Shown here piece after piece: positions 4,692-57,000 of a stretch of DNA of 64,000 bases (positions within the stretch are counted from its first letter, which is position 1; each line of letters starts with the position of its first letter). The position numbers were made by a program, and so were the translations under genes. Source of the stretch: Gordonia sp. X0973 (lineage in GTDB: Bacteria; Actinomycetota; Actinomycetes; Mycobacteriales; Mycobacteriaceae); NCBI RefSeq assembly GCF_013348785.1, contig NZ_CP054691.1:2790001-2854000 (forward strand), given 5' to 3'. The notes beneath the pieces were generated by a model that saw only the letters and a program-made list of their open reading frames with translations, was not told the DNA's origin and ran no database searches.

Positions 4692-4800
4692 GCTTCCATA
4701 CGCCGGTAACATTCGGGTGACCTCACCAAATGATCGTCGCGGCGCGTCGTGGGCCGCCAAACCCTCGCCGTGCGGACGCCCTTCTGGCAGTATCGCAACG

Positions 4801-5199
4801 ATGATCCCCTTCCTGTGGCGCACCGCCACCACCGGCGTAACCCTGTGGCTCACCACCCTCCTCATCCCGGGCAGTCTCAAGTTCGATTGGGGGACGGCTA
4901 CCGCCACGTGGCAGAAGGTGGGGATCGTCGCCATCGTCGCGGTGATCTTCGGCGTCGTGAACGCCTTCATCAAGCCGTTCGTCCAGGTGTTGTCGATCCC
5001 CTTCTACATCCTGACCCTGGGCCTGTTCGGAATCATCATCAACGCCTTCATGTTGTGGATCGTCTCCTGGTTCACCCAGAAGGTCACCCACTGGGGATTG
5101 GTGGTCAACAACTTCTGGTGGTCGGCGATCTGGGCGGCCATCATCGTCGCGATCGTCGGCATGGTCGTCAGCGCGGTCGCCGACGCCGTCGCGAAGTAG
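4801..5199 (+). CDS. Phage-holin-4 superfamily (YvlD-like) membrane protein
   Basis: A 132-residue protein that is almost entirely hydrophobic, with about four membrane segments: near the N-terminus, VGIVAIVAVIFGVVNAFIKP, FYILTLGLFGIIINAFMLWI, and a last one ending IVAIVGMVVSAVADAV. The NAFIKPFVQVLSIPFYILTLG segment is typical of the family annotated Phage_holin_4_2 in chromosomal, non-phage contexts. Despite the name, no lysis role is implied: nothing phage-like lies nearby. The ATG at 4801 lacks a strong ribosome-binding site. It is divergent from the tubulin/vWA operon across about 110 bp, where I see no clear operator. The following lipoprotein gene starts 8 bp later, so the two are probably co-transcribed. 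Confidence 0.75.
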   Translation: MIPFLWRTATTGVTLWLTTLLIPGSLKFDWGTATATWQKVGIVAIVAVIFGVVNAFIKPFVQVLSIPFYILTLGLFGIIINAFMLWIVSWFTQKVTHWGLVVNNFWWSAIWAAIIVAIVGMVVSAVADAVAK

Positions 5200-5207
5200 G
5201 GATGGGC

Positions 5208-32600: not shown

Positions 32601-33700
32601 GCCGCCGTCGGCCGCCGTATCCCCGGCGGCGGCGCCGCCGGCGTCGACGAGGTAGTTGATCCCCACCTGGAACAACGGGGCATGGGCGGTCGACCGGTTG
32701 GGCGCGAGGGCTTCCACCACCTGCTCGAAGGGCACGTCGGCGTGGGTGAAGGCCTCCATCGCGACGCCCGAGACCTGTTGCAGGAGGGCCCGGCCGCTGT
32801 CGCCGCCGCCGTGGCGGGTGCGCAATACGACGGTGTTGACGAACATGCCGACCAGGTCGTCGAGGGCTTCTTGCCCCCGCCCGGCGACCGCCGCGCCGAT
32901 GGCGACGTCATCGGTGCTCGCCAGCCGGGCGACCGTGGCGGCCAGGGCGGCGTGCAGGACCATGAACGGGGTGACCCCCTCCCGCGCGGCGGTCGTATGG
33001 ACCGCCGCGGACCGCTGCGGACCGAAGTCGAAGACCAGCTGGGCGCCGGACAGATCCGCGACCGCCGGGCGCCGACGGTCCGCGGGCAGGTCGACGACCT
33101 CGGGCAGTTCGGCGAGGGTCTGCGACCAGTACCGGATCTGGGCGGCGAGGATCGACCCCTCGTCGTCGGGGTCGCCGAGTTGCTCGCGCTGCCACAGCGC
33201 GTAGTCGGCGTACTGGATCGGCAGCGGCGCCCACGTCGGTGTCACACCGTTGGCTCGGGCCGCGTAGGCCGCGCCGAGGTCGCGGGTGAAGACCGGCATC
33301 GATTCGGCGTCGGTGGCGATGTGGTGGACCACGATGACCAGCACGTGGTCGGCACCGTCGGCGGCGACGCGCGCACGGATCGGCAGGTCGGTGCCGACGT
33401 CGAATCCGCGAGCGCCGACGGCGAGCGCCTCCTCGGCCGTGTCGGTGACGGCCCAGTCGAACCGCGCCGCGGCGTCCCGCTCGTCGACGATCTGCGCGAC
33501 CGGCGTGCCGTCGACCACCGGGTAGACGGTGCGCAGCACCTCGTGACGGGAGACGACGTCGACGAGTGCGGCGCGCAGAGCCTCGACATCCAGGCCGCCG
33601 GGCACCCGCAGCGCGACCGGGATGTTGTAGGCCGGCGACGCCGGGTCGAACCGGTTGAGGAACCACATCCGCTGCTGCGCGTAGGCGAGCGGGATGTGCT
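29697..33700 (-). other. NRPS module 10 with thioesterase (C-A10-T10-TE)
   Basis: The C domain has HHIATDAES, with Ala where HHxxxDG has Gly. The A10 code is about D G F V G A G V S K. T10 is [10 protein letters not shown]. The TE (GWSIGG) hydrolyses or cyclises the product. Confidence 0.68.
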
Positions 33701-36700
33701 CGGGTCGGGGGCCGGCGACCAGCGGCGCACGGGTGGCGGCCGTCCCCACGCGCGCGGCGAGCCCGCGCACCGTGGGCGCCTCGAAGACGTCGCGGACCGT
33801 GACATCCGCGCCGAGCGCCTCGCCGACCCGCGCGGCCACCCTGGTCGCCGAGAGCGAGTTCCCGCCGATGTCGAAGAACGAGTCGGTGACCCCCACCCGG
33901 TCCAGGTGCAGGACCGCCGCGACGACGTCGGCGATGGTCTCCTCGATGGGGCTGGTCGGCTCGATCAGCGCGGTGACGGCGAACTCGGGTTCCGGCAGCG
34001 CCTTGCGGTCCAGCTTGCCCGCGGCGTTGAGCACGACGTCGTCGAGGCCGACCCACACCGTTGGCACCATGTAGCCGGGCAGGGCGGCGCGCACGGTTTC
34101 CCCGATGGCCTGCGACGACACCGACGACGGGCTGTAATACCCGACGAGGTGCTGCTCGCCGGAGGATGTCTCGTGCACCGTGGCGGCGACGTGGACGACG
34201 CCGGGGGCCCGCCCCATGACCGCTTCGATCTCGCCGAGTTCCACCCGCTGGCCGCGCAGCTTCACCTGGAAGTCGGTGCGACCGAGATACTCCAGCACAC
34301 CATCGGGGCGGCGGCGCACCAGGTCGCCGGTCCGGTACATCCGGGCGCCGGGCTCGCCGAACGGGTCGGCGACGAATCGGTCGGCGGTCAGGTCGGGCCG
34401 GGCCGCGTAGCCGCGCGCGAGTTGGACCCCGCCCAGATACAGCTCGCCGGCGACCCCCTCGGGCACCCGCCGCAACCGCGAGTCCAGGACGATGGCCGAC
34501 GAGTTCCAGACCGGCGTGCCGATCGCCACCGACGTCGCGGAGCCGTCCACCGACTCGATCGGTTCGGCGGTGATTTCCACGGCGGCCTCGGTGGGGCCGT
34601 ACAGGTTGAACAGCAGGGATTGCGGCAGCGCGTCACGCACCGCGGCGGCGCTCGCCGGCGGCAGCGCCTCCCCGGTGAAGGACATGATGCGGACCGAGTC
34701 GAGTTCGGCCAGTCGGGCCGGTCCGACGACGTCGAGGAAGGCACCGAGCATCGACGGGACGAAATGCACCATCGTCGCCCGCGCGCGGGAGATCGCATCG
34801 GCCAGCGCCCGCGGATCCAGGTGCGTCTGCGGCCCCAGCACCAGCATCCGGGCGCCGGTCATCAGCGGGGCGAACAACTCGGGAACCGACACGTCGAAGG
34901 TGTACGGGGTCTTCAGGACGACGACGTCGCCCTCGTCGATCGGGAGCGCCGCCAGCCCCCACCACAGTCGGTTGAGCACTGCCGCGTGACTGAGCGTCAC
35001 CCCCTTGGGCACACCGGTCGAGCCCGACGTGAACAGCGTGTAGACGGCGTTGTCTGCACTGACGGCGCCACGGCGCTCCGCCGCCGTCAGTAGCGCCTCC
35101 TCTCCGAGAGGTTCGTCGGCGGTGAAGTCCAGCACGCGGGCGCCGCGGCTGCCGGCGACCTCGACGACGGCCGGTGCCGCGCCCACCGCGTCGGCGGTGA
35201 GCACCACCGACACCCCGGCCGCGTCGAGCATGTGTTCCACCCGTTGCGCCACCGCGCCGGTGTCGACCGGGACGTACTGTCCGCCGGCCGCGACGATCGC
35301 GTGGATGGCGATCACCATCTCGATCGACCGGGGGATGGACAGCGCGACCGCGTCGTCGGGGCCCACCCCGGCGGCGATCAACCGCCTGGCCAACTGCGAC
35401 ACCCGCGCACCGAATGCGCGGTAGGTCAGCTCGCGGCCGTCCTCGGCGACCAGGGCGACGGCCTCCGGGGTGGCCTCGATCTGGGCGAAGACCGCGTCGG
35501 TCACCAGCGGCAGAGCCGGCACGTCGCGCCGCTCGCCCGACTCGACACGTTCGAGCCGGGCCGCCTCCGGCGCCTGCAGGATCTCGATGTCGCCGACGGC
35601 CCGCGCGGGATCGGCGGTGGCCTCGGCGAGGACGGTGACGAGGCGGTCGGCGAAGCGGGCCACGGTGGCGGCGTCGAACAGATCGGTGGCGTACTCCAAT
35701 CCGAGCGACCACGGCTGGCCCGCGGCCCCCGCGGACACCTGCACGGTCAGATCGACGCGCGAACTCACCGTCGGCGCCTCGACCTGCTCGATCGACAATC
35801 CCGGTAGGTCGACACCCGTCGAAAGGCCGCCGAGCCGGTTGAAGAAGACCAGCACCTGGGTCAGCGGGGCGAAGGCCTCCGACCGCACCGGGTTGAGGGC
35901 GTCGACCAGCGATTCGAAGGGGACGTCGGCATTGGCGAAGGCCGACGTGTCGATCGTCTTCACCTTCTCGAGGAAGTCGGCGAAGCGCTCCTTCGGGTCG
36001 ACCGCGGTCCGCAACACCAGCGTGTTCACGAACATGCCGACCAGCGGGTCCAGGACGGCCCGTCCCCGCCCGGCGCTGGACGCGCCGATCGCCACGTCGT
36101 CCGCGGCGGCCAATCGGCCGATCAGCGCCGCGAGGGCGGCGTGGAAGACCATGAACTCGGTGGCACCGCTCGCGCGCGCCAGCCGCTCGATTCCGCTGAC
36201 GACCGACGCCGGGATCTCGGCACGCACCAGGGCGCCCCGATGCGTCGCGACCGGCGGCCGGGGGCGGTCGCCGGGTAGCTCGACCAGGTCGGGCAGCCCG
36301 GCGAGTTCCCGCTGCCAATAGTCGAATTGGCCGGCGAGCACCGAATCCTCGTCGGCCACCGTCCCCAGTTCGCGCTGCTGCCAGAGGGCGAAGTCGGCGA
36401 ACTGCACCTCCAGCGGCTCGAAGCCGGGGTCGCGACCGGCGGACCGGGCGGCGTAGGCCCGGACCAGGTCGCCGGTCAGCGGTTGCAGGGATTCGCCGTC
36501 GGCGGCGATGTGGTGTGCCACCACCGCGAGGACCACCCCGTCGGCGCCGGGCCACACCCGCACCCGCACGGGCCACTGCCGCGACACGTCGAAACCGGTC
36601 GTGACGGCGCTCTCGATCCCGGCGAAGGAGTCGACGACCTGCCAGTCCAGGTGCTGGGCCGCCGAGTCGGCGGCGGCGATCACGGCCGTCGGCGCACCGT

Positions 36701-39700
36701 CGACCGCGGGGTAGACGGTGCGCAGCACCTCGTGACGGTCGACGACGTCGTCGAAGGCGGCGCGCAGCGCCGCCAGGTCCACGTCGCCGACCAGCCGCAG
36801 GACCAACGGGATGTTGTAGGCGGGTGAGGCCGGCTCGAATTGGTTGAGGAACCACATCCGCTGCTGCGCGAACGACAACGGGATCTCGTCGGGTCGCGGC
36901 ACCACGGCGACCACCGGTGCCAAAGCGGCGCCGGTAGCGGCGGTGGCGATGCGTGCCAGATCCCGCACCGTCGGGGCCTCGAATACGTCGCGGACGCCCA
37001 CCTCGGTGCCGAAGGCCTCACCGACGCGGGCGGCCAGCCGGGTGGCCGACAACGAGTTGCCGCCCAGGTCGAAGAAGGAGGCGGTGGCCCCGACGCCGTC
37101 GACCTCGATGTCCAGCAGGTCGGCGACGATCGCCGCCACGGTGTGTTCGGCGTCGGTGGCCGGCTCGACGTAGTCGTCGGCGGCCGCGAAGACCGGCTCC
37201 GGCAGCGCCGCCGTGTCGAGTTTGCCGACCGGGGTCATCGGGAGTTCGTCGATCACCGTGATGCTTCCGGGCACCATGTAGGCCGGCAGCGCCGCGGCGG
37301 CATGGGTCCGCACCCGGTCGACGTCGAGTGCGCGCCCGGGCACCGGGACCAGATAGGCGGCCAGGGCGGTGGCGCTCGACCCGCCGACTCCGACTACGGC
37401 GGCGGACGCCACGTCCGCGTGCGCGGCGAGCACGCCCTGGATCTCGCCCAGCTCGATGCGCAGGCCGCGCAGCTTCACCTGGTCGTCGGAGCGACCGACG
37501 TATTCGATGCTCGGCGTCCCGTCCTCCCCGCGCACCCAGCGCACGACGTCACCGGTGCGGTACATCCGCTCCCCCGGCTCGCCGTGCGGATTCGCGACGA
37601 AGCGCTCCGCACTCAGCCCGGGCCGGTCGAGGTAGCCGCGGCTCAGCCCGGCGCCGGCGACGTAGAGTTCGCCGGCCACCCCGTAGGGGACGGGTTGGAG
37701 TCGACCATCGAGGACGAGGAGCGCGATGCCGGGGATCGCCCCGCCCAGCAGCACGGGTCCGCCCGTGTCCCGCAGCGGCGGGGACAGGGTGACGCCGATG
37801 GTGGTCTCGGTCGGCCCGTAGAGGTTGTGGACCACGACATGCGGCGCCCAGCGGCCGACGAGGGCGGCGGGCACGGCCTCGCCGCCGGCCATCAGGGCCT
37901 TGAGATCGGGCAGGTCCCGCGGGTCGAGGGTCGCCAGGACCGAGGGGGTGAGGAAGCCGTGCTCGACCCGCTGCTCGGTCATCCACGCCTGGAGCTCGGC
38001 GCCGCCGACGGCCTGGGTCGGCCGGTAGGCGATGGTGCCCCGAGCCGTCACGGCCATCAGGTATTCCAGCACCGAGGCGTCGAAGCTCGGCGAGGCGAAC
38101 CCGAGGACCCGCGCACCCCGCTCGACGCGCAGACCCGCGTGTTGGGCGGCGGCGAAGTTCGCCAGGCCGCGATGGCTGACCGAGACCCCCTTCGGGCGCC
38201 CGGTCGAGCCGGAGGTGTAGATGACATAGGCCAGGTTGTCGGCGTCGACGGGGGCGGCGAGTTCCGCGGCGCGCAGCGGCTCGGAAGATTGTGCGGCGAT
38301 GTCGGGGAGCAGCCGCGTCCCGCCGATGTTCGCCGTAGCGGGGGCGCCGTCGGGGGGCTCGATGCCGTCGACGGTGAGCGCCAACACCGCGCCCGAGTCT
38401 TCGAGCATGTTCGCGACGCGCTGCGGCGGATAGTCGGGGTCGATGGAGACGTAGGCGGCACCGGTCTTGGCCACCGCCCAGACCGCGGTGTAGGCCATCG
38501 CCGAACGTGGGATGAGCAGTGCGACGATCTGCTCGGCGCCGACGCCCCGGGCGATCAGCCAGCGGGCCAGGCGCGTGGAGCGCTCGTCGAGTTCGCGATA
38601 GGTGAGCTGGACGCCGAGTCCGTCGACGACGGCGACGGTATCCGGAGCATCGGCGACGGCGGCCGCGAACAGATCGGCCAGCAGCACCGGCGGGACGGCG
38701 CGACCGGTGGTCATCGGCACCAGTTCCCGCTGTTCGGCGTCGTCGAGCAGCGGTACCGCCCCGACCGGTGTGTCGGGTGCGGCGACCAGGGCGCCGAGGA
38801 TCGCGACGATCCGCCTGCCGAGGGCGGAAACCGAATCGTCGGTGAACAGGTCGGCGGCATAGGCGATGCGGCCACCCCACGGCTGCCCGGCGGGCGCGAC
38901 CCCGACGCCGACGGTGAGGTCGACCCGCGCCGGCTCCTCGGCGAGGGTGAGCGGCTCCACCGCGAGACCGCCAGGCAGGGTGAGCCCGGCGGTGTCCCCG
39001 GCGCCGTCTTCGACGGTGAGCAGGACCTGGGCCAGCGGCGCGAAGGCCTCCGAGCGCGTCGGCGCCAATTCGGTCACCAGGTATTCGAACGGCAGATGCG
39101 CGTGCTCGAAGGCCGCGAGGTCGACGTCGCGCACCTGGTCGAGGAGTTCGCCCAGCGGCACGCCCGGGTCCACGGCGGTGCGCAGCACCAGGGTGTTGAC
39201 GAACATGCCGACCAGGCCGTCGAGTTCCCGGCGCCCGCGACCGGCCACCGGTGAGCCGATGACGATGTCGCCGGTGCCCGACAGCCGGGCCAGGAGGGCG
39301 GCCAGCGCGGTGTGGACCACCATGAACGGGGTGACGCGGTGCTCGCGGGAGAACTCGGCGATCGCGGCGGCGAGGTCGGCCGGGATCTCGAATCCGACGC
39401 TGGCGCCCCGGGTCGAGGCGACCGCCGGGCGCGGGAAGTCCGTTGGCAGTTCGAGCAGGTCGGGGGCCGCCTCCAGGTTCTTGCGCCAGTAGTCCAGCTC
39501 GGCACCGAGCACCGATCCCGAGTCGTCGGCCGACCCGAGGACCCGCTCCTCCCAGATGGCGACGTCGGCGACCTGGATCGGCAACGGGTCTGCCTGACTC
39601 TCCCCGCCGGCGGCGGTGGCCGCGTAGGCCGCGATCAGGGCACGGGCGAGGACGCCGCCGGACTGCCCGTCGCCGGCGATGTGGTGGATCATGACGAGCA

Positions 39701-42700
39701 GGATGTGCTCGTCGTCGGCGACGGGCTGCAGCCGCACCCGGATGGGCAGTTCGTCGACGAGGTCGAAGCCGTCGGTGGCCGCCGCCTCGAGTGCGGCGCG
39801 GTCCCCGACCACCGCCCAGTCGACCAGTTCCGCGGCGTCGTCGGCCGGGAGGACCAGTTGGTGGGGCACGCCGTCGTGGGCGGGGAAGAGCGTGCGCAGC
39901 ACCTCGTGGCGGGAAAGCACGACGTCGAGTGCGGCACGCAGCGCGTCGATGTCGAGCGGGCCGCGCACGCGCAGGCCGATCGGGATGTTGTAGGCCCCCG
40001 AGGCCGGGTCGAAGCGGTTGATGAACCACATGCGGCGTTGCGCGTTGGTGAGGGGGATCCGGGCGGGGCGCGGTTCGGCGGCGGTGATCGGCGGCAGACC
40101 GGCGGGGGCGTCGCCACCGACGCCGCGCAGGAGTTCCCGCACCGTCGGCGCCTCGAACACGTCGCGGACCGAGATGTCGACACCGAGGGCGTCCCCCGCC
40201 CGCGCGGCGAGCTTCGTCGCCGACAACGAGTTGCCGCCCAGGTCGAAGAAGGATTCGGTGACGCTGACCTCGGACAGGCCGAGGACTTCGGCGTACGCGG
40301 CGGCCACCGCCGCCTCCCGCGGATTCCGCGGTGCGACGAATTCGGCGGCCAGGGCGGTGAAATCGGGGGCGGGCAACGCCTTTCGGTCCAATTTGCCCGC
40401 GGAGTTGAGCACGACGTCGTCCAGCGGCACCCACACCGTCGGCACCATGTACGACGGCAGGACCGCGCCCACGGCGGCCTTGACCGACGCCACGTCGACC
40501 TCCGGCCCCCCGGCGGCACTGACGTAGCCGACGAGGTGTTCGGTGCCACCCGGCCCGGCGACGACGGTCGCGGCGGCGTGCACGACGCCGGGAGCGGCGG
40601 CCATCGCCGACTCGATCTCGCCGAGTTCGATGCGCTGCCCGCGCAGTTTCACCTGGAAATCGGTGCGGCCCAGGTACTCCAGCCCACCCGATGCGTTCCA
40701 CCGCACCAGGTCGCCGGTGCGGTACATCCGCTCCCCCGGCGCGCCGAGCGGGTTCGCCACGAAGCGCTCGGCGGTCAGGTCGCCGCGCGCAGCATATCCG
40801 CGGGCCAGCTGAACCCCGCCCAGATACAGCTCGCCGGCCACCCCCGGCGGCACCGGGGCCAGCCGGGCGTCCAACACCAGCGCCGTCGAGTTCCACACCG
40901 GTGCCCCGATCGGCACGACCGCGCCGACCTCGGTCACCCGCTGGTAGGTGATCTCCACCGCCGCCTCGGTCGGGCCGTACAGATTCCACAGGTCCACGTC
41001 GAGGGAGTCGAGGACCTGTGCTGCGACGGCCGGGGGCAGCGCCTCGCCGGTCGTCGAGACGTAGCGCAGCTCGGTCAGGCGGGCCAGTTGCTCGCGCGGC
41101 ACCACGTCGAGGAAGACCGAGAGCATCGACGGCACGAAATGCACCGAGGTGACCCGCTGCGACTCCAGCAGCTGCGCGAGGTAGCGGGGGTCGGCATGGC
41201 CGCCGGGACGGGCGATCACCAGGGTCGCCCCGGCCAGTATCGGCGCGAACAGCTCGGTGACCGAGCAGTCGAAGGTATAGGGCGTCTTCTGCACGACGAC
41301 GTCGTCGGCGCGCCACGCGATCTCGTCGAGCCCCCACCACAAGCGGTTGAGCACAGCCTCGTGGGTCAGGGTCACACCCTTGGGCCGGCCGGTCGATCCG
41401 GAGGTGAACAGCGTGTAGACCGCGTGGTCGGGTCGCAGCGGCGTGAGTCGCTGCGCGTCGGTGATCGGCACGATGCCCGGGTCGAAACCGCCGGAGGCAT
41501 CGACGATCACCAGCTGGGCGCCGGCCGCCCGGGCGGTCTGGGCGACGGTTCCGGACTCGTCGCCGGGGCCCACCAGCACCGTGCGCGCCCCCACCGTGGC
41601 GAGCATGTACTCGACGCGATCGGCGGGGGTCTGCGGGTCGATCGGCACGTACTGCCCGCCCGCGGCGATCACCCCGTGCAGTGCCACCAGCATCTCCACC
41701 GACCGCGGCAGGCACACCGCCACCGCGTCCTCGGGGCCGATCCCCGCGTCGACCAGTCGCCGACCCAGTTCGGCGACGCGGGCGGCGAATTCGCCGTAGG
41801 TCACCGACCGGTCCTCGAATACCAGCGCGACGGCCTCGGGATTCGCGGCCGCCCGCCGCACCAGGTGATCGGGCAGCAAGGTCGGGTCGACCTCGCGCAC
41901 CGCTCCGCTCTCCCACTGCGCCACCCGCCGCCGTTCGTCGTCGTCGAGGAGCGCGATGTCGCCCACCGGGAGCTCCGGCGCGGTGGCCAAGGCGGTGAGC
42001 ACGGCGACGAAGCGGTCGGCCAGCCGCTGCGCGGAATGGGCGTCGTACAGGTCGGTGGCGAAGGGCAGCCGCCCGGTCCAGCCGCCGTCGGCATCGGGGG
42101 CGAGAACGAAGGTGAGGTCGTTCTGCACCGCCGTGGTGGGTGCGGCGACGGGATCGACGGTCAGGCCGGCGACCTCCTGCGCTTGCCCCGCGGCACCGTC
42201 GGCGAAGTTCTGGAAGGCCAACTGGATCCCGAAGAGCGGCGTGTGAGCCTCGGTGCGCGTCGGCGCGAGTTCTTCGACGAGGTATTCGAAGGGGATGTCG
42301 GCATTGGCCAGTGCGCGCTCGTCGGCGGCGCGCACGGTGCCGATCAGTGCGCGCGCGTCGGCGGCCGGGTCGACCAGGGTCCGCAGCACCAGGGTGTTGA
42401 CGAACATGCCGACCATGCCGGCCGTCTCCGGGTCGCCGCGCCCGGCGACGGGCGTGCCGATCACCACGTCGTCGGTGCCGGCCAGGCGGGAGATCAGTGC
42501 GGCGAGGGCGGCGTGGACCACCATGAAGTCGGTGGCCCCGACGGACCGGGCCAGGTCGCCGACCGCGGCCACGACCCCCGCCGGAACGGCGAAGTCGACC
42601 GAGCCGCCGGCCTGGGTCGCCACCGGCGGTCGCGGGCGGTCGCCGGGGATCTCGACGATCTCCGGGATGCCCGCCAGCTCTTCGCGCCAATGCTCGAATT

Positions 42701-45700
42701 GCCGGGAAAGCTCGGAGCCCGGATCGCTCACCGACCCGAGGCGCTCGCGCTGCAGCAACGCGACGTCGGCGAATTGCAGCGGCAACCGCTCCCAGCCCGG
42801 TTCGCGGCCGGAGACACGGGCGGCGTAGGCCGTCATGAGGTCGGCACCGAGGATGCCCAGCGAGACGCCGTCGGCGGCGATGTGGTGCACGACCGAGGCC
42901 AGCACCTGCGCATCACCATCGGTGAACAGCGCGACGCGGACCGGGATCTGGCGCGTGACGTCGAAGGTCTGTCCGAGGAATTCCGCGACCGCGGTACCGA
43001 CGTCGGCGACGACGCGGCGGGAGAATCCGATCTCCACCACCGCCGTATCGAGGTCGACGATCTCCTGGACGGGATCGCGCCCGTCGTCGCCGGCCGGGTA
43101 GCGGGTCCGCAACACCTCGTGCCGCCCGAGCAAGTCATTGACCGCCGCGGCCATCGCCGCGTCCTCGACGTCGCCGGTGATGCGCATGGCCAGCGGCAGG
43201 TTGTAGGCGGTGGTGTCCGGGTCGAAGGTGTTGAGGAACCACATCCGCTGCTGGGCCAACGACAACGGCAGCCGGTCGGGACGTTCGGGCCGCTCGGCGA
43301 CGGATACTTCGCCGAGGCCGATGGCCCCGTCCAGGTCGAGGGCGCGGGCCAGCGCCGCCGGAGTCGGGTTGTCGAAGAGCAGGCGCACACCGACGCGCTC
43401 GCCGGTCAGCGCCGTGAGCCGCCCGGCCAGCTGGGTCGCGGTCAGCGAGTTGCCGCCGATGTCGAAGAACCCGGCGTCGGCACTGACCTCCGACAATCCG
43501 AGCACGTCGGCGAAGACGTCGACGAGGACTTCCTCCGCCGCGGTCGCGGCCGGGCGGAACCCGGTGTCGGCGGTGAACTCCGGCGCGGGCAGCGCGTTGC
43601 GGTCGAGCTTGCCCGCGGTGTTGAGCACGATGTCGTCCAGCGGCACCCACACCGTCGGGTGCATGTATTCGGGCAGGGCCAGCGCGACGGCGGCGGCCAC
43701 GGTCGGCGGCGCGACATCGGCCGGCGCGTAGTAGCCGACCAGGTGCTCGCCGCCGCCCGGTGCGGTGACGACGGTCGCGGCGGCGTGCACGACGCCCGGA
43801 GCGGCGGCGATCGCCGACTCGATCTCACCCAGTTCGATGCGCTGCCCGCGCAGCTTCACCTGGAAGTCGGTCCGGCCCAGGTACTCCAGCCGATCGCCGC
43901 CGCCGGCCGCGCCGGGCAGGATTCGCACCAGGTCGCCGGTCCGGTACAGCCGCGATCCCGGCCCGCCGAACGGGTCGGCGACGAAGCGCTCGGCGGTGAG
44001 GTCGGCGCGAGCGGCATATCCGCGGGCCAGCTGGACCCCGCCCAGGTAGAGCTCGCCCGGCATCCCCGGCGGCACCGGGCGCAGCCTCTCGTCGAGGACG
44101 TAGGCCGTCGAGTTCCACATCGGCACGCCGATCCCGACGCGCTCCCCCACCGTCTCGATCTGCTCGTAGGTGATCTCGATAGCCGCCTCGGTGGGGCCGT
44201 AGAGGTTGTAGAAGTCGGCACCCGGGACGAGTTCGCGGGTGCGCGCGGCGACCGCCGGGGGCAGCGCCTCACCGGTCGTGTAGATCCAGCGCAGACTCGA
44301 CAGCGTCAGATCGGTCCCGCTCCCGCCGTTGGCCAGGCCCCCGACGACGTCGTTGAACACCGAGAGCATCGACGGCACGAAGTGGATCGAGGTGACACCG
44401 GCGGAGGCGACCAGCTCGGCGAGGTAGACCGGATCGGCATGCCCACCCGGCTCGGCGATGACGACCTGGGCGCCGACCATGAAGGCCTCGAAGAGTTCGG
44501 GGACCGAGCAGTCGAAGGTATAGGGCGTCTTCAGCATCACGACGTCGTCGGCGGCCCACCCGAACTCGTCGTTGCCCCAGTACAGGCGGTTGAGGACCGC
44601 CTCGTGCGACAGCGTGACCCCCTTGGGCACGCCGGTGGAGCCCGAGGTGAACAGGGTGTAGGCGGCGTGGGCGGGGCGCAGCGGGGCGCGCCGGTCGGCA
44701 TCGGTGACGGGCACATCGGCGGCCGCCGGATCGACCGGTCCATCCGCGTCGACGGCGACGACCCGCGCGCTCGTCCCGCGCAACGGCTCCACCCGCGGGT
44801 CGACGACCAGGGCCAAGGACACCCCGGCGGTGTCGAACATCTGCTGGGTGCGCTCCGGCGGCGCCTCGGTGTCGACCGGCACGTACTGCCCGCCGGCGGC
44901 GACGATCGCGTGCAGCGCGACGAGCATCTCGACCGAGCGGGGCATGCAGACCGCGACGGCGTCCTCGGGTCCGACGCCGAGCCCGATCAGTTCCCGCGCG
45001 AGGGAGTTCACCCGCGCGCCGAATTCCCGGTAGTCGACGACCCGGTCGCGCAGGCGCAGTGCCGGGGCATCCGGGGTCGCCGCGACCTGTGCGGCGAGGG
45101 TATCGGGCAGCGTCGTGCGCGCCACCTCGACGACCGGTCCGCGCGCCCGCGCCAACGCCTCGGTCCGGGCGCGCTCCGACGCCGGGTCGATGTCGCCGAG
45201 GCGGCGGGCCGGATCGGCGACCATGACCCGCAGGATCTGGCGGTACACGTCGGCGAAGGCCTCGACCTGTGCGCCGGTGAACTCGCCCGGCAGGTACTTC
45301 AGGGTCGCCGAGATGTCGTCGGCGACCGGCTGCGTGTACAGGTTCAACGGGTAGTGCGAGGCGTCGGCCATCGCGATGTCACTGATCGCGACGTCACCCG
45401 GTGTCGCCGCCTCGATCCCGGCGACGTCGATCGGATAGGACTCGTGCAGGGTCAGGGTGTCGAAGAGGACGTTCTGGCCGACGGCGGCGGAGATCTCGGC
45501 CAGGCTCACGTGCTGGTGGTCGAGGACGTCGACCTTGGCGCGCTGCATCCCGTCGAGCAGTTCGGCCACGGTGCGGTCGGGGGCGATCCGGGCCGCGACC
45601 GGAAGCGTGTTGATGAACAGGCCGATCATCGATTCGACGCCGTCGAGCCCGGCCGGGCGGCCGGACACCGTCTCGCCGAAGCACACCGTGCGATTGCCGG

Positions 45701-47270
45701 TCAGCCGCGAGAGGAACACCGCCCAGGCCGCCTGCAGGATCGTGCTGGGGGTGACCTGCTGCTCGCGGCCCAGCGCGCCCAGTTCCGCGGTCAGATCGGC
45801 ACCCAACCCGAAGCGGAATTCGGCGGGGGGCTCGTCGGCGCTGACGCCGGCACCGGTGCCGACGAGGGTGGGGCCGTCGAGGTCGGCGAGGAGATCGCGC
45901 CAGGCCGCGAGGCCGGCCTCCCGGTCGGTGTCGGCGAGGTGGGCCAGGTAGTCGGCGAAGTCGGGCTCGTCGGGAACCGCGGGCGCACCGGTCCCGTACA
46001 GCGAGAGCAGGTCGGCCAGCACCAGTGGGCCCGACCATCCGTCGAAGAGGATGTGGTGGTTCGTGACGACGAGGCTGTCGTGGTCGTGCCCGGCGGCCAG
46101 GACGAACCGTACAACGGGCGGCGCGGCGAGGTCGAACGGCCGGTAGCGCTCCGCACCGGCGAGGGCGGCGACCGCCGCCGCGTCGGGAGTCTCGTGTATC
46201 TCGAAGGGCAGCGACACCGAATCCGGGACGACCGCCGCGATGGCCCCGCTCTCGGTGCGGATATAGCCGGAGCGCAGGACGCGGTGCCGGTCCAGCAGGG
46301 CGGCGACCGCGGTGCGCAGCCGCTCCCGGTCGAGGTGGCCGGTGAACTCGATGACGGCCTGCGTCGAATAGACGTCGAGGCCCTGCGCATCGTCGGCGAC
46401 CAATTCGTGCTGGAAGTAGAACCCGCGCTGCAACGGGGAGAGCCCCCACACCTGCGCTTCGGGATAGGTGCGCGCCAGCGCGTCGAGATCGGCCTGGGTG
46501 AGACCCGATCCGGGCACGTCGGACGGGCTGAGCCCGATTCCGCCCGCCCGGGCCGCGGCGACGATCCCGCCCAGTTCGGCGGCCCAGCGGGCACCGATGT
46601 CGGAGGCGGCGGCGAGGTCGAGGACGGTGTCGTCGTATCCGATGTCGGCGACGAGTTCGCGCCCACCCTCGCCCGGTACCGCGCTGACGGTGAACGCCAG
46701 CGCGTTGGCCGGGCGCATCCGGCCGCTGACAGTCGCCGGGAGCGACGGCCCGTCGGCGGCGGGCACCAGGTCGTCGGCCAGCTCGTCGGCGGAGTCGGGG
46801 GTCGCGGCGGCGGCCGTGCCGGCGCCGAGGAAGTTGAACCCGATACTGGGCAGCGGTCGGCGTGCCAGTTCCGGATCGGGTTCCGGCCCGTAGCGGAGCA
46901 TGCCGAATCCGGCGCCGTCGGGTTGCCCGGCGATCTCCTCCTTGGCCGCCTTGACGGCGTGGACGGCATCGGCGCCGGGGTCGAGTAGCACCGGCGCGAT
47001 GGTGGTGAACCAGCCGACGGTCCGCGTCAGGTCGGCCTGGCCCGTCTGGTGCGCCAGGACCGTGTGGTCGCGGCCGTGTCCCTCGAGCTGCACCGAGATC
47101 GGCCGGTCGTCGACGATTCCGGCGGCGCACTGGTAGCCGCGCACCGCCCGGGCCAGGGCGGCCAGCATGATCTCGGTGCTGCCGGTGCGGAACGCTTTCG
47201 GCGCGGTGCCCAGGACCGCTTCGGCGACATCGGCCGGCACGCGCAGGCGCGTCGTTCGGGCCGCGCTCAT
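29697..47270 (-). CDS. Five-module NRPS: E(C-half)-[C-A-T]x5-TE
   Basis: A 5857-residue nonribosomal peptide synthetase. It begins with the second half of an epimerization domain (EGHGR near 47080, then TVGWFTT), whose first half ends the upstream gene. Five C-A-T modules follow. A-domain ATP loops (TSGSTG) lie near 44,640, 41,400, 38,200, 35,020 and 31,800; T-domain serines (GGNSL) near 43,450, 40,230, 37,055, 33,865 and 30,670. It ends in a type I thioesterase with GWSIGG (Ser5665, codon 30276-30278), a downstream Asp (GLMDAA) and His (THHLGM), so it releases the finished peptide. The first C domain is DCL-like ([10 protein letters not shown]), matching a D-residue from the split E. The ATG overlaps the upstream TGA (ATGA) and GGAGG lies 4 bases before it. 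Earlier in-frame codons only read through upstream NRPS sequence in the wrong frame. Confidence 0.93.
33750..36895 (-). other. NRPS module 9 (C-A9-T9)
   Basis: C domain with HHIAADGES. The A9 code is about D V P H S T L V E K, the fifth EntF-like domain and close to A2. Confidence 0.68.
36950..40070 (-). other. NRPS module 8 (C-A8-T8)
   Basis: C domain with HHIAGDGQS. The A8 code is about D A L F M G L I G K, differing from A3 at one position, so both should load the same residue. Confidence 0.68.
40120..43290 (-). other. NRPS module 7 (C-A7-T7)
   Basis: C domain with HHIAADGVS. The A7 code is about D C T H S T L V E K, EntF-like and very similar to A1. T7 is GGNSLSATK. Confidence 0.68.
43330..46480 (-). 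other. NRPS module 6 (C-A6-T6)
   Basis: A DCL-type C domain ([20 protein letters not shown]). The A6 code is about D C P H Y T L I E K, EntF-like. T6 is [10 protein letters not shown]. Confidence 0.68.
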
Positions 47271-50200
47271 CGGTCCTCCCCCGGATTCGTCGGTGCCAAT
47301 ACCGTCGGCGTCTGCGGCAGCCGGTCGAGCCAATAGCCGGTCTCGTCGCGGCGCGCGGCCGCCTCCCGCGCGACGGCGGTGTACCAGCCGCGCACCGAGG
47401 TCACCTCCGGGCGCAGGTCGATCGGGCTGCCGCCACGGTGCTGCGCCCAGGCCGTAGCGAGGTCTTCGACGAGGATAGGCCAGGACACCACGTCGACCCC
47501 GAGGTGGTGAACGGCGAGCACGATGCGGCCGTCGCCGGCGGAGTCGCGCACCAGCACGGCGGCGACGAGGAGCCCGACGGCCGGGTTCAGGTGGGCCAGG
47601 GCGTCGGCGTGGGCCGCACGGATCTCGTCGTCGAACGCCGGGCTGCCCGCCGCCGCGTCGCAGACCCGGTGCGCGATCCACACCGCGTCCTCCGCGTCGA
47701 CCACCCCGGTTCGCAGGATCGCGTGCTGGAAGTCCTGGTCGAGGGTGGCGCGCAGCGCCGGGTGCGCCTGCGCGACCGCTCCCACGACGACGCGCAGCGC
47801 ATCGGCGTCGAGTGCGCGCGGCGCGGTGAACACGATCGCCTGCGAGAAGTCGGCGTAGTCGCTCGGCCCGTCGGCCGACTCGGCCATCCACGCGACGATC
47901 GGCGGCAGCGGCACCTCGCCGTCGGCGCCGCCGTCGGGTTCGGGCAGCGCCGGTGCCGTCGATCCGTCCGTGGCTACCCGGGCCATCGCGCGCACCGTGC
48001 GGTGCTCGAAAATCTCGCGCGGGGTCAGCGGCAGCCCGGCCGCCTTGGCCGCCGACGCCAATTGGATCGACATGATCGAGTCGCCGCCGAGCGCGAAGAA
48101 GGATTCGGTGACCGACACCCCGTCGCGGCCGAGCAGGCCGGCCACGATGTCGGCCAGAGTGGCCTCGGCCTCGGTCTCCGGTGCGGCGAACTCGCCGGCG
48201 ACCGGGGCGCCGGGCACCGGCAGCGCGGCACGGTCCAGCTTCCCCGACCGCGTCATGGGCAGTTCGTCGATGGTGAGGAGTTGCCCGGGCACCATGTGGG
48301 CCGGGAGCAGCAGCGCCGCCGCGGCGGTGACCGCCTCGATGTCGGGGGCCGGGGCCGCCTGGTCGGCGACGAGGTATCCGACGAGGCGGGTCACGCCGTG
48401 GTCGTCGTCGATGCCGACCACGACGGCCTGCGCGACGCCCGGCTGCGCGGCGAGGACCGCCTGGATCTCGCCGAGCTCGACGCGCTGCCCGTTGATCTTG
48501 ATCTGGTCGTCGGCACGGCCGGCGAACTCCAGGTCGCCCGAGGCACCGCGGCGAACCAGGTCGCCGGTGGCGTAGAGGCGGGCCCCCGGCTCACCGTGGG
48601 GGTCGGCGACGAACCTGCTGGCGGTCAGCCCGGGGCGGCGCGCATAGCCGCGGGCGAGCCCGGCGGCCGACAGGTACAGCTCGCCGACCACGCCCTGGGG
48701 CACCTCGTGCAACCGGGCGTCGAGGACCCGCGCGGTGAAGCCCTCGATGGCGCGGCCGATGGTGACCGGCTTGTCGGGCAGCATGCGTGCCCGGGTGGCC
48801 CACACCGTCGTCTCCGACGGGCCGTAGAAGTTGAACAGCCGCCGCCCCCGCGCGGCCCACCGCTCGACGAGCGGCGGCGGGCAGGCCTCGCCGGCGGTGG
48901 CCAGGTTGCGCACGGTCTCCGCACTCGCCGGGTCCAGCGAGGACAGCACGGAAGGGGTGATCACCATGTCGGTGACCTGGCCGTCCGCGATCACCTGGTC
49001 GAGGGCCGGGCCGGCGTAGTCGTCGGCCGGCGCGATCACCAGGGTGTGCCCGGCGGCGACGGCCCAGATCATCTCGAAGAAGGAGGCGTCGAAGCTGGGC
49101 GAGGCGACGTGCAGCACGCGGGTGTCCGGGTCGTCGGCCCGGCTGCCGGTGATCGAGCGGTGCGCGGCGACGAGGTCGGCGATACCGGCGTTGCCGACCG
49201 CGACGGCCTTGGGCTGCCCGGTCGAGCCGGAGGTGTAGATGAGGTAGGCCAGGGTCGCCAGGGTGACCGACCCGCGGCGCTGAGAGTCGAGCACCGGCGA
49301 GTCGTCACCGGAGGCGAGTAGGTCCTGCACGGTCACCCAGTCACAGCCGCCGCCCAAGCCGGTGCCCGCATCGATCCCCAGCGCCGCGGCGCTGTCGTCG
49401 AGCATGAAGGCGATGCGCTCGGCCGGGTAGGCCGGATCGACGGGCAGGTAGGCGGCCCCCGACTTCACGACGCCCCAGACGGCGACGACGAAGTCGATCG
49501 ATCGGGGCAGGCCGATCGCCACCACGTCCTCGGGTCCGAGGCCGCGTTCGATCAGGGCGTGTGCGACGCAGTTGGTGCGCGCCTCGAAGGTGGCGTAGTC
49601 GAGCTGCTCGTCGCCGCAGATCAGCGCCGGGTGGGTGGGGTCGAGATCACGGCTCGCGAGGACGTCGACGAGGGTGCCCGCCGCGCTGGTGCCCCCAACC
49701 GCCCGACGGCTCCCCGGCTCCGGCAGGCGCGTCGCGACCGCCGGAGGCGACGACGCTTCCCCGACGATGTCGATGTCGCCGACAGCGACAGTCGGGTCGG
49801 CGACGGCCGCGGCGACGATGCGCTGCCACACCTCGGCGAACCGGCGGATCGTCCCCTCGTCGAAGAGTGCTGTGGCATAGGAGAATTCGAGGAAGGACTC
49901 GGTCTCGCCGTGCAGCACGCTGAGCGTCAGGTCGACCTTCTCCTCGTCGATGTCGACCGGCAGCGGTTCGACGGTGATGCCGGCGCGGCGCAGTTCCGCG
50001 CTTTGCAACCCGTCGTCGTCGGTCACCGTCAGCGCGATCTGGAACAACGGGGCGTGTGCGGTCGACCGTTCCGGCGCCAGCTCCTCCACCAACTGCTCGA
50101 AGGGCACGTCGGCGTTGTCGAAGGCTTCCAGGTCGGTGCGGCGCACCTGCGCCAACAGCTCCGCGACCGACGCCCCGGCGTCGATCCGGGTGCGCAGCAC

Positions 50201-51090
50201 GAGGGTGTTGACGAACATGCCGATGAGGTCGTGCAGCGCCGCGTCCGCGCGCCCGTCGATGGGGGTGCCGAGGACGACGTCGTCGGTGGCGGCCAACCGG
50301 GCGACGGTCGCGGCGAACAGGGCGTGGTGCGCCATGAAGCCGGTGACGCCGTGTGCGGCGGCGAAGCCCTCGATCCCGGCGCGCAGGTCGGCCGGGATCG
50401 GGAGGCGCACCCGGGCGCCGGCGCGGTCGGCGACGGCCGGGCGCGGGCGGTCCATCGGGAGGTCGGTGACGGCGGGCAGGCCGGCCAACCGGTCGCGCCA
50501 ATAGGCGAATTGCCCGCCCATCGCCGAGTCCGGGTCGTCCGGATGGCCGAGTTCGTCGAGCTGCCACAGCGCGTAGTCGCCGTATTGGACGGGCAGGTCG
50601 GGCAGCGGAACCGGCGCCGCACCGACGCGCGTCTCGTAGGCGGCGACGAGGTCGCGCAGGAAGATCGGGCCGGATTGGCCGTCGAAGGCGATGTGATGCA
50701 CGACGATCAGCAGGTCGGTCGTGCCGTCGGCGGTGTCGTCATACCAGCGACCGCGGATCGGCAGTTCGGTGGCGACGTCGAATCCCCGCCCCGCGTCGGC
50801 GACCAGTTCCGGCGCCGACTCGACCCGGCGCCAATCGAGCCGTCGCCGGGCGTCGGCGGGGGTGAGGATCTCCTGCCGGGGACCGGCGGCGGGATCGGCG
50901 GGGAACACCGTGCGCAGCACCTCGTGGCGATCGAGGACGTCGCCGAGCGCGGCGTGCAGCGCGTCGAGGTCGACGGCGCCGCGCAGCCGCACCGGGATCG
51001 GGATGTTGTACGCGGGTGAGGCGGTGTCGAATTGGTTGAGGAACCACATGCGCCGCTGGGTGGCCGAGAGCGGGAGCGGATCGGGCCGCT
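46560..51090 (-). other. NRPS module 5 (C-A5-T5-E2), split across two genes
   Basis: C domain with [10 protein letters not shown]5 code about D A F V A A F V W K; T5 [11 protein letters not shown]2 is complete only when the end of the upstream protein ([10 protein letters not shown]) and the start of the downstream protein (EGHGRDH) are taken together. The break is at 47267-47270. Confidence 0.7.
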
Positions 51091-54000
51091 CGCGCAGCAC
51101 CGGCCGCGACGGCAGGTCGCCGCGGAGTTCCTCGGCGCGGCGGGCCAGATCGCGGACGGTGGCCAATTCGAAGGCGTCGCGCACCGTCAGCGACGACCCC
51201 AGCGCCGCGTTGATCCGCGCCACGAGCCGGGCGCCGGAGAGGGAGCTGCCGCCGAGGTCGAAGAAGGAATCGTCGGCGCCCACCTCGGCCACGTCGAGCA
51301 GCTCGCCCATGATCGCGGCCACCGCGCGCTCCGCCTCGGTGGACGGCACCGCACCGCGGCCCGCCGCGGCGACGAACTGCGGCGCGGGCAGTCGGTCGCG
51401 GTCGACCTTGCCGATCGCGGTGAGCGGGAGTGCGTCGAGCGGCACGTAGACCGACGGCACCATGTAGGCGGGCAGCGACGCGCGCAGCGCCTCGGACACC
51501 GCGTCGGCGTCGAAATCGACTCCGGGTGCGGCGACGACGTAGCCGACCAGCCGGGCGTGACCCGCCGGATCGGTGGCCCCGACGGTGTACGACTGGTCGA
51601 TTGCATCCAGCGCCTGCAGGGCGTGGTCGATCTCGGCCAATTCGATCCGCAGGCCGTTGATCTTCACCTGGAAATCGGTGCGCCCGGCGTATTCGAGCTG
51701 CGGGCCGTCCAGCCCGTCGGGGATCACCCAACGGACCAGGTCGCCGGTGGCATACATCCGGTCCCCTGCCTTCGCGGGGCTCCCCGGGCCGGTGGTCGAC
51801 GCGGCGTACGGGTTCGCGACGAAACGGGACGCGGTGAGCCCGAACCGGTTCCAGTAGCCGTTGGCGACGCCGTCGCCCATCAGATACAGCTCGCCGACGA
51901 CGCCGACGGGGACGGGTCGCAGCCGCGGGTCGAGGACGACCGCGGCCATCCCCTCGACGGGCTCGCCGACGAGCACCGGGTGCTCGGGACGCAGGTCGAA
52001 AAGGGTCGAGACGACGGTGGTCTCGGTCGGGCCGTAGTTGTTCTGCAGGGTGATCCCCGCGCCGGTGACCCGCTCCACCAGCTCCGGCGGGCAGGCCTCG
52101 CCGCCGGTCTCCAGCCGCTTCAGGGTGGGCACGCGTTCGACCTCGGTGATCGCGAGCACCGCCGGGGTGAAGACCGCATCGGTCACCCGACCCGCGTTCA
52201 TGACGTCGACGAGTTCGTCGCCGCCCACCACGTCGGCGGGGACGACGACCACGGTGTTGCCCGCCGCCACCGGGGTGAGGTAGTCGAGCAGTGCGGCGTC
52301 GAAGCTGGGCGAGAGCAGGTGCAGGACCCGCGCATCCTCGTCGTCGGGCCAATCCTGGGCGAAGGCGAGGATGTTCGCGATTCCGCGGTGGCTGACGGCG
52401 ACGGCCTTGGGCAGACCGGTGGAGCCGGAGGTGAAGATCAGATAGGCCGTGTCGTCGACGCGGGAGGGACGGATGCGCTCGGCCGCGGCGACGGACTCGG
52501 CGGACAGCTCGGCCAGCGCCACGTCGGTCTGCGGGGCGTCGATCACGATCGGCTCGACGGCCGGAGCAGCGGCGACCACCGCCTCGCGGTCGCGCAGTCG
52601 TGTCAGCACGGCGTGCGCATCCGCGTCGGCGAGCATGAAGGCGATCCGGTCGGGCGGCAGCTTGGGATCGACCGGGAGGTAGGCGGCGCCGGTCTTCATG
52701 ACGGCGGTGATGCCGATGACCGAGTCGGCCGAGCGCGCCATGACCACCGCGACGGTGTGGCCCGGGCCGAGGCCGCGGCCGATCAGCAGCCGCGCGAGAC
52801 GGTTGGTCAACGCCTCGAACTCGTCGAAGGTCCACTGCCGCTCACCCTCGATCACGGCGATCCGGTCGCCGGTCAACCTCCGCGCGTCGAGGATCTCGGT
52901 GATGGTGCGGCGCGGGCGGCTGGGCAGGCGCGAGCGCCGCGGCAGCAGTTCGACGTGCTCGGTGGCGGTGAGGAGGTCGATGTCGCCGACGGGCTGGCCG
53001 TCGCGGCGGGTCAGCGCCTCGAGGACCGTACGCCAGATGGTGCCGAAGCGGCGCACCGTGGACTCGTCGAACAGCGCGGTCGCGTAGGCCATACCGGCCC
53101 GCAGGCGCCCGCCAGCGGAGGTGACGACCTCGTCCACCTCGAGGACCAGGTCGACCTGCGCGGGCATCGCCCCGGTGTCGAGGGGGGTGACGTCGATACC
53201 GGCCCGCAACAGCGGGTCCTTCTCGGTCGCGGCAGTGGAATTGAAGGTGAAACCGATTTGGTAGAGCGGGGAGTGCGCGGTGGACCGCGGCGGGGCCAGG
53301 ATCTCCACCAGCTGCTCGAAGGGCACGTCGGCGTTCGCCATATCCGCGACGTCGCCCGCCCGGACCCGGGCCAGCAGGGCGTCGGCGTCCTCCTGGGGTA
53401 CCACCTGGGTGCGCAGCACGACGGTGTTGACGAACATGCCGACCAGTTCGTCCAGTTCGCGCTGCCCGCGGTTGCCCGCTGCGGCGCCGATGGCGATGTC
53501 GGCGCTGCCGGTCAGCCGTGCGACGGTGACCGCGAGGGCGGCGTGCAGGACCATGAAGGTCGTCGTCCCGGTGCGAGCGGCGAGTTCGGCCACGGCGCGG
53601 GCCAGCTCATCCGGCAACTCGATCGCGACGCGGCCGCCGGTGTGGTCGAACACCGCGGGGCGCGGTCGGTCGAAGGGCAGGTCGAGCGACTCGGGCAGAT
53701 CGGCCAGGCGCTCGCGCCAATACCCGACCTGGCGCCCCACCACCGAATCGGGATCGTCGGCCGCCCCCAGCGCCGACTGCTGCCAGAGCGCGACGTCGGC
53801 GAAGCGCACCGCTAGCGGCGGCAACGGATTCGGGCCGCCCCGGGAGCGGCTGACGTAGGCCGCGACCAGGTCGCGGGCGAGCACCGGCATGGACTGGCCG
53901 TCGGCGGCGATGTGGTGGACGGCGAGCACGACCACCGCGCTGCCCGGCGACTCGACGACGACGCGGGCCCGCACCGGGATCTGGCTCGCCACGTCGAAGC

Positions 54001-57000
54001 CTCGGGCGGCGGCGGACATGGCCTGCTCGACGGTGCCGACGACCTCCCAGTCCAGTTCGGCCGCCGCCTCGTCGAGGGGGCGGATCACCTGCCTCGGCAC
54101 GCCGTCGGCGGCGGGGAACACGGTGCGCAGCAGTTCGTGGCGTCCGACGACGTCGAGCAGGGCCGCGCGCACCGCGTCGACGTCCACCGCGCCGCGCAAC
54201 CGCAACGCGATGGGGATGTTGTAGGCGCCCGACTCCGGGTCGAATCGGTTGATGAACCACATCCGCTGCTGGGCGGAGGAGAGGGGCACGACCTCGGGCA
54301 GCGGTTCCACCCGGCTGATCGGCGGGAGCGCCGAATTCGCCGCCCCGGCGGTCAGCCCGGCCAGGCCGCGCACGGTCGGCTCGTCGAAGACGTCGCGCAC
54401 CGACACGGCGTGGCCCAACGCGTCGGCCAGCCGGGCCGCCAGCCGAGCCGCGCTCAGCGAGTTGCCCCCGAGGGAGAAGAAGGAGTCGGTCGCACCGACC
54501 CGGTCGAGGCCGAGGAGTTCGGCGACGGTGGCGGCCACCGCGCGCTCGGCGTCGGTGGCGGGTTCGATGAATTCACCGGATCGCGCGACCTCCGGTGCGG
54601 GCAGGGCGCCGCGGTCCAGTTTGCCCACCGGGGTCAGCGGCAGGTCGTCGATCACCGTCACCGTCGCCGGCACCAGGTGGCTGGGCAGGGCGGCGCCCAA
54701 CCGCTCGCGGACGGTCTCCCCGGTGACCGCCGCTCCCGGTTCGCCGACGACGTAGGCGGCCAACGATGCGACGACGTTCTCGCCGGACTCGGCGATGCCG
54801 CCGTCCTCGCGGACCCCGACGACGACGGCGCTGCCCACCCCGTCGAGTGCCCCGATCGCCGCCTCGATCTCGCCCAGTTCGATGCGCAGCCCGCGCAGCT
54901 TGATCTGGTCGTCGTTGCGGCCGCGGTAGCGCAGGACCAACCGGCCGGCGCCGTCGCGGTGCCAGGCGACGACGTCGCCGGTGCGGTACATGCGGTCGCC
55001 GTCGGCGCCGAGCGGGTTGGCGACGAAGCGGTCGGCGGTCAGCCCGGGTCGGTCGAGGTAGCCGCGCGAAAGCGCGTTGCCGTAGACGTAGAGCTCGCCC
55101 GGGAAGCCGAGGGGCACCGGGCGCAGCCGCTCGTCGAGCACGGCCAATCCGACACCGTCCAGCGGCGCGCCCAGCACCACCGGCTCGCCGGGTACGAGCG
55201 GGGCGCTGATCGTGATGCCGATGGTGGTCTCGGTGGGACCGTAGAGGTTCTGCAGGCGGTGCTGCGACCACCCGGCAACGAGCGACCGCGGCACCGCCTC
55301 GCCGCCGACGAAGAGGGCCCGCAGGGTCGGCCACGCGTGCGGGTCGAGCGAGGCGACCACCGACGGCGTGAGGAATCCGTGGGTCACGCCGCCGTCGGCG
55401 ATGACCCGTTGCAGCGCGTCGCCCCCCACCGCGTCGGAGGGCCGGTAGACCAGGGCGGCGCCGGAGACGGTCGCCAGGAGGTATTCGAGGACCGAGGCGT
55501 CGAAGCTCGGCGAAGCGAAGGCCAGGACGCGCGCATCCGCGGTGATGTCGCTGCGCCGGGCCTCCTGCGCGGCGAAGTTGGCCAGTCCCCGATGGGTGAC
55601 CGCGACCCCCTTGGGCCTCCCCGTCGAGCCGGAGGTGAAGATCACGTAGGCGGTGTTGTCGACATGAGTGCGCGGCAGCTCCGGGATCGGCTCGGCGCTC
55701 GCGGCCCGGTAGCGGGCGACGAACTCCGCCCCGTCCACGCGGTGCCACCCGCCGGGTTCGCCCGGCAGGGCGGGCAGCTCGCCGACGGCGGTCACGGTGA
55801 GGCCGTGGCCCGCACCGCAGTCCGCCAACATGGCCGCGACCCGCGCCGACGGGTAGTCGGGGTCGATCGGCACGTATCCGCCGCCGGTCTTGGCGACCGC
55901 CCAGATGGCGATCAGCAGTTCCACCGATCGCGGGATGGCCAGGGCGACGAGTGTCTCGGGGCCGACCCCGTCGGCGAGCAATACCCGCGCCAACCGGTTG
56001 GACGCCTCGTCGAGCTTGCGATAGGACATCGACGAACGGCCGCTGACGACCGCCGTCTCGTCGGCGTGGCCGCGGGCCGCGGCGGCGAACAGCTCGCGCA
56101 GCAGCACCGGCGCCGTCCCGCCGACCATGTCGGGGCCGGGCGACGCGTCGGGTGCGGTCAGCGCCAGATCGCCCACCGATTCGGCGGTACCGGTGGCGAT
56201 CCCGCCCAGCACGGTGCGCACGGAGTCGACGACGGCGGCCGCCTCCTCGGCGGTGAACAGGTCGGGCAGGTATTTCAGCGTGAGCGCGAGGTCGCCGCCG
56301 GATGCGGGCGCGGCGGCCAGGGTCAACGGGTAGTGCGTGGCGTCGTCGGCACGCACGCCGACGATCTGCACGCCGAGGGAGCCCCCCGCGGCGGCGATTC
56401 CCTCCGCGTCGACCGGATAGGACTCGAAGACGGTCAGGGTGTCGAAGAGTTCGGGTTGCCCGGCCGCCGAGGCGATGTCGGTGAGCGAGAGGTGCTGGTG
56501 GTCGAGCACCGCGGCCTTGCGCGCGGTCAGCTCGGCCAGCGCCGCTGGAATCGGCTGGCGCTCGTCGACGGTGACGGCCACCGGAACGGTGTTGATGAGC
56601 AGGCCGATCATCGTCTCGGCACCGGGCAGTTCGGGCGGGCGGCCGGAGACGGTCTCGCCGAAGGCGACCGTGTCCACGCCGGTCAGCCGGTGCAACACCA
56701 CCGCCCACGCGAATTGCAGCAGCGTCGCGGTGGTGGTCTCGTGATCGCGGGCGAAGGCCGCCAGCGTTGCGCTGAGCCCCGGGCCGAGGTCGATGCGGTG
56801 ATCCACACTCGCCCCGACCGCGGACACCGCTCCGGGGGCCACCAGCGTCGGGCCGGTGACGTCGGCGAGGAAATCACGCCACACCTCCCGGCCGGCCTCG
56901 ACGTCGCGCTCGGCGAGCCACCCGAGGAAATCCCGGTAGTCCGAGGCGGCGCCACGGCTCGGTTCGCCGGCGTAGGCCGCGAAGAGTTCGGCCAGCACGA

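Follow-up and report, generated by a model that had tools for sequence, protein, structure and literature searches.

An epimerization domain divided between two overlapping nonribosomal peptide synthetase genes is kept in three Gordonia species

In the window, by which we mean the whole 64,000-nucleotide stretch of Gordonia sp. X0973 DNA that was analysed (contig NZ_CP054691.1, positions 2,790,001 to 2,854,000), an epimerization (E) domain is divided between the end of one nonribosomal peptide synthetase (NRPS), NRPS-B, and the start of the next, NRPS-C, and this split E domain is a real design that is kept in three Gordonia species. We consider it probable that this is a naturally split E domain whose halves would arise by coupled translation and whose lobes would join non-covalently, rebuild the epimerase and link the two megasynthases. 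According to this model, NRPS-B would contribute the N-lobe with the HHxxxDxxSW motif at its end, and NRPS-C the C-lobe with EGHGR and the E-COM-C connection at its start. Ribosomes finishing NRPS-B would restart at the overlapping ATG, aided by a purine-rich site, which would place both proteins in the same location in similar amounts. The two lobes would then associate non-covalently and re-form the active site between them, the rebuilt E domain would epimerize the residue on the last NRPS-B carrier while the association of the lobes holds the two megasynthases together, and the D-configured chain would be handed on to the C domain of NRPS-C, which is DCL-like.

The two NRPS genes lie on the minus strand and overlap by four bases, ATGA, at 47267–47270, which comprise the TGA stop of NRPS-B (47267–47269, minus strand) and the ATG start of NRPS-C (47268–47270, minus strand), the frame of NRPS-C being −1 relative to that of NRPS-B. 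A Shine-Dalgarno-like GGAGG (47275–47279, minus strand) is followed by ACCG and then by the ATG, so that the overlap and the GGAGG four bases 5' of the start codon are both found where an earlier note on this DNA had reported them. The C-terminal part of NRPS-B occupies 47267–64000 (minus strand); its start (G000:C1:2857492) lies outside the window, and with the sequence outside the window added the full-length protein has 6741 aa. NRPS-C (29697–47270, minus strand) has 5857 aa and an N-terminus inside the E domain. The HHxxxDxxSW active-site motif (47480–47509, minus strand) corresponds to residues 6662–6671 of the 6741 residues of NRPS-B, which leaves 70 residues to the C-terminus, and the EGHGR motif with the catalytic Glu (47070–47084, minus strand) corresponds to residues 63–67 of NRPS-C, preceded by 62 residues. 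The earlier note had put these distances at about 60 and about 55 residues, respectively.

The two halves, searched separately and never joined, add up to one E domain. The N-lobe half at the end of NRPS-B (47270–47923, minus strand) matches positions 26–205 of the Pfam Condensation profile, and the C-lobe half with the COM-like segment at the start of NRPS-C (46461–47270, minus strand) matches positions 251–356, with 21.9 bits (below the 30.6 cut-off); TIGR01720 gave 69.4 bits on the C-half (below the 74.2 cut-off). On NCBIfam NF004282, the upstream protein matches up to position 2993 and the downstream protein from position 3001. Against PvdL (9lcp), the N-half aligns to 58–295 and the C-half to 311–552, with about 14 junction residues here vs 15 in PvdL, and against the E domain of TycA (2xhg) the halves align to 12–217 and 232–407, with about 12 junction residues here vs 14 in TycA. 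These three alignments agree with the earlier proposal that the halves make up a complete E domain from which no linker has been lost, and given the end-to-end fit of the halves to profiles and solved E domains, the break therefore sits in the linker between the two lobes. In an AlphaFold2 model of the N-half (three sequences), confidence in the N-lobe extended as far as residue ~170 (block pLDDT means of 66–94 across residues 21–170), after which a low-confidence helix and tail followed, and the model of the C-half (three sequences) contained a strand from residue 5 and was weak overall (mean pLDDT 62.2). The top Foldseek matches of both models were entries containing E domains, as were all 13 matches of the C-half model at E ≤ 0.001. 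By sequence and structure, both halves are thus E-type rather than C-type, with the TIGR01720 score of the C-half below cut-off, and the best matches of both are one-chain E-domain entries. One-chain E domains (TycA E, 2xhg; GrsA E, 5isx; TycB3 E, 6ta8; PvdL E2, 9lcq) share the motifs and the fold; they are unbroken, whereas the Gordonia chain is broken between the lobes, with its halves on two proteins. Not being one continuous polypeptide as an ordinary E domain is, it was classified as a split variant.

Comparison of the locus in related genomes, which the earlier note had suggested, revealed two frames and the same break in two further species. In genome G026, the end of the upstream ORF and the start of the downstream ORF share the same ATGA overlap (L010, 1501–1504), and Gordonia sp. 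UBA7599 has the same break and the same overlap (L034, 8001–8004). Relative to the window species, the N-half is 71% identical in G026 and 64% in UBA7599, and the C-half 73% and 63%, respectively. When the start of NRPS-C was compared with the 59 genomes of the genus, G026 (71%) was the one close match beyond the own genome, the remaining rows among the matches listed showing at most 53% identity; for UBA7599, the best segment had 62% identity. All three genomes share the bases CGATGAGCG without any variation and have a purine-rich stretch 5' of the ATG, and the species differ in how long the end of NRPS-B is and in its sequence (the G026 tail is five codons shorter). The shared break, overlap and purine-rich stretch support the earlier suggestion of a real, coupled translation of two half-domains. 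About one C-A stretch of the window species, lying after the intact E domain and before the split one (NRPS-B residues ~4391–5370), has almost no aligned counterpart in UBA7599, and the latter seems to lack one module there.

Several features in the vicinity of the split domain would fit epimerization at this site. GGDS-type carriers accompany E domains. Among the carriers found by motif in NRPS-A, NRPS-B and NRPS-C, GGDSI carriers occur only before the two E domains, and the ten others are of the GGNSL (9/10) or GADSL (1/10) form; one carrier of NRPS-B that should lie around residue 5400 escaped the motif search. The carrier before the split E domain (LGGDSI, 48074–48091, minus strand) has the same form in G026 and UBA7599. 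The C domain after the split E domain (HHILFDG, 46038–46058, minus strand) shares 48% identity with the one that follows the intact E domain in NRPS-B (57428–58897, minus strand, used for comparison), grouping with it at a support of 1.00, and 24–27% with the other eleven C domains. A149, a starter-like C domain, also falls together with both after-E C domains, its branch being long (0.993). Section 3.2 of a review states that a DCL domain always follows an E domain (PMC11546977), and the grouping of the two C domains is expected if both are DCL domains.

The C-lobe motif differs among the three species, and the joint may not be an active epimerase in all of them. The His and Glu of the HHxxxDxxSW and EGHGR motifs are described as key catalytic residues (PMC12402864). 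HHxxxDxxSW is present in all three species (HHLAVDAVSW in G026, HHLGVDAVSW in UBA7599), and the window species has EGHGR with the catalytic Glu; in G026 (L010, 1687–1700) and UBA7599 (L034, 8187–8200), ERHGR replaces EGHGR and the Glu is kept. In a DNA pattern count with CGN arginine over 44 loci, EGHGR was found in 36, namely the window junction twice (L001, L002) and 34 others, which include the broken E domain of G110 described below (L043); ERHGR was found only in the split domains of G026 and UBA7599, and at L007 neither motif matched. The presence of ERHGR in two of the three species, and its absence from the 34 other EGHGR loci, counts against full activity and would favor a split E domain that is a joint alone, in which the lobes still associate and, in G026 and UBA7599 at the least, epimerization is reduced or gone. 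We consider this unlikely, as the Glu, HHxxxDxxSW and the GGDSI carrier are kept in all three species, while the window species has EGHGR and a next C domain of the after-E type. The best inference is that the E domain would act as a non-covalent joint between the proteins, the lobe interface being the only link between NRPS-B and NRPS-C that appears identifiable. The chances seem even that a catalytic domain has here been turned into a docking joint, the two lobes of the epimerase having to meet both to form the active site and to link the proteins, such that the line could not connect without an assembled epimerase; in G026 and UBA7599, the changed Glu motif is a hint of a joint that may outlast catalysis.

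It is considerably less probable that the halves do not assemble at all, the E domain being a remnant and the proteins meeting by other contacts. The weakness of the C-half model on its own would be in line with such a remnant, but all three species retain both halves, whose dN/dS between the window species and UBA7599 does not exceed that of the intact E domain. In this single species pair, NG86 dN was 0.275 for the N-half, 0.295 for the C-half and 0.340 for the intact E domain of NRPS-B (from the HH motif onward), with dS values of 0.782, 0.809 and 0.823, respectively; the A domain before the split E domain had a dN of 0.223 and a dS of 0.716, and the C domain after the intact E domain 0.366 and 0.692. 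Identities were 64% (N-half), 63% (C-half) and 57% (intact E). In this pair, dN is far below dS in both halves, as it is in the intact E domain, and the halves decay no faster than the latter. C domains are described as consisting of two subdomains, the C-terminal one extending a latch and a floor loop to the N-terminal one (PMC11546977), and an equivalent arrangement would offer a reason why the separate lobes could hold together.

Translation restart at the ATGA would be the simplest route to both proteins. The duplex energy with the 16S tail was −11.3 kcal/mol for the window, −15.5 kcal/mol for UBA7599 and −9.3 kcal/mol for G026, for which the 20-mer was set one base too far upstream. Random coding 20-mers (n = 3000) had a mean of −5.1 kcal/mol, and 3.9%, 0.7% and 8.9% of them reached the values of the window, UBA7599 and G026, respectively. 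With four bases between them, the GGAGG is rather near the ATG, which counts against the model, as do the shares of random 20-mers that reach the values of the window and G026. Alternatively, some ribosomes might shift frame at the overlap and additionally produce a fusion containing an entire E domain. The −1 frame of NRPS-C relative to NRPS-B would suit such a shift, and a G-run in G026 fits a slippery heptamer by eye; however, a search of the final 60 nt of the upstream frame found no slippery heptamer (X XXY YYZ) in either the window or UBA7599, so that no conserved heptamer precedes the stop, the invariant bases are those around the start codon, and the upstream tail of G026 is five codons shorter. 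As these 60 nt contain no heptamer in the window and UBA7599, programmed frameshifting was set aside as the principal explanation, and an additional fused product is highly improbable.

That the break reflects a sequencing error or a recent frameshift in a single gene is scarcely credible: 127 of the 129 paired E halves of the genus, in 54 genomes and among the matches listed, are in one frame, which would favor an error, but three separate genomes share the break, the overlap and the start codon, which rules out a sequencing error. The earlier note had named a one-base deletion, real or technical, as the alternative; its technical form is thereby eliminated, and the split may still have originated in an old one-base indel.

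The surveys behind these counts indicate how rare the split is. The genus survey covered 59 genomes, in which the best candidates were scored (18 per genome for the C-half, up to 51 for the N-half), and 137 C-half rows (those listed at E ≤ 1e-170) and 150 of a larger number of N-half rows were combined into 129 pairs, with 8 C-half and 21 N-half rows unpaired. The two out-of-frame pairs among the matches listed are those of the window species and G026; UBA7599, whose contig ends soon after the junction, had no C-half row at E ≤ 1e-170 and was counted as the third split case. Genome G051 of the survey, with its break at the same place, was taken to be UBA7599 itself and was not added as a fourth. 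Outside the genus, 348 genomes from a larger group were surveyed with the best 7 or 8 candidates scored in each. Here, 97 C-half and 131 N-half rows gave 48 pairs (49 and 83 unpaired, 14 own-genus rows having been excluded from each table), and all 48, in 25 genomes and among the matches listed, were in the same frame. In both surveys, frames were judged by coordinates and not by gene-by-gene reading. Within these surveys, the split is found in one lineage only. Three other loci were considered and rejected. In G022 (L040), the N-half lies in a short open frame, but the E domain is whole, the NRPS frame changing right after it, between E and C (2956–3100). The C-half of G158 (L044) is located at a contig end. 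In G110, which belongs to another genus of the same family, the N-half of an E domain is in one frame and its C-half in another, the two frames overlapping over a long stretch (L043, 1044–1827), and the downstream frame continues, by eye, into a reductase-like domain. No start codon was seen at this junction, and the locus was read as a frameshift, decay or an error and not as a second ATGA split.

Breaks between NRPS domains and COM docking of proteins that end in an E domain are already known. In the literature searched, beyond whose reach most subscription journals lay, no E or C domain with a natural internal break was found. The nearest natural parallel in that literature is the dehydratase (DH) domain of the cremimycin polyketide synthase, which is split into CmiP3 and CmiP2 and is active when artificially connected (PMC11284099). 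As with the split E domain, a catalytic domain of an assembly line is divided over two proteins; the cremimycin case concerns a PKS dehydratase of another fold, whereas the Gordonia case concerns an NRPS E domain with an ATGA shared by three genomes. COM domains, too, connect one NRPS protein to another beside an E domain, at E|C borders. A 2025 paper suggests that trans-COM pairs emerged from cis-COM when genes were split, and it locates the trans-COM split where the COM helix ends, after the E domain (PMC12402864); the Gordonia break lies about 250 residues earlier, inside the E domain. In NRPS-C, the E C-lobe, the COM-like segment and the C domain follow one another in one unbroken chain, and the junction is thus not a trans-COM docking pair, in which the break comes after the COM helix at the E|C border. 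The earlier idea of an E domain that acts as a joint in place of docking domains is refined by this COM-like segment: as it stays uncut in NRPS-C, the break is inside E and not at the usual COM site. XUC engineering units have a boundary inside C domains, between the donor and acceptor subdomains, and thus use an inter-lobe position, as the split E domain does (PMC11546977, PMC10443035); the XUC boundary is an engineered exchange point in C domains, whereas the Gordonia break is natural, lies in an E domain and is left as two chains. In SyrB1/SyrE, one NRPS module is also spread over two proteins, with a break between domains and not, as here, inside one (PMC8949500).

A conserved break at this position would mean that an E domain tolerates an open linker between its lobes, near the site of the XUC boundary in C domains, and would provide a natural, testable split site that keeps the E C-lobe, the COM-like segment and the C domain together. 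Docking and catalysis would in this case depend on one interface. Together with the split DH of cremimycin, the split E domain suggests that both kinds of assembly line can divide a catalytic domain. NRPS-A (2671 aa) lies upstream of NRPS-B, and at their border, outside the window (L036, 6893–7890, minus strand), the two genes overlap by GTGA; NRPS-A ends with a C domain and about 120 residues that have no Pfam match and by eye resemble the start of an A domain, and in NRPS-B about 120 residues stand ahead of the first A domain match.
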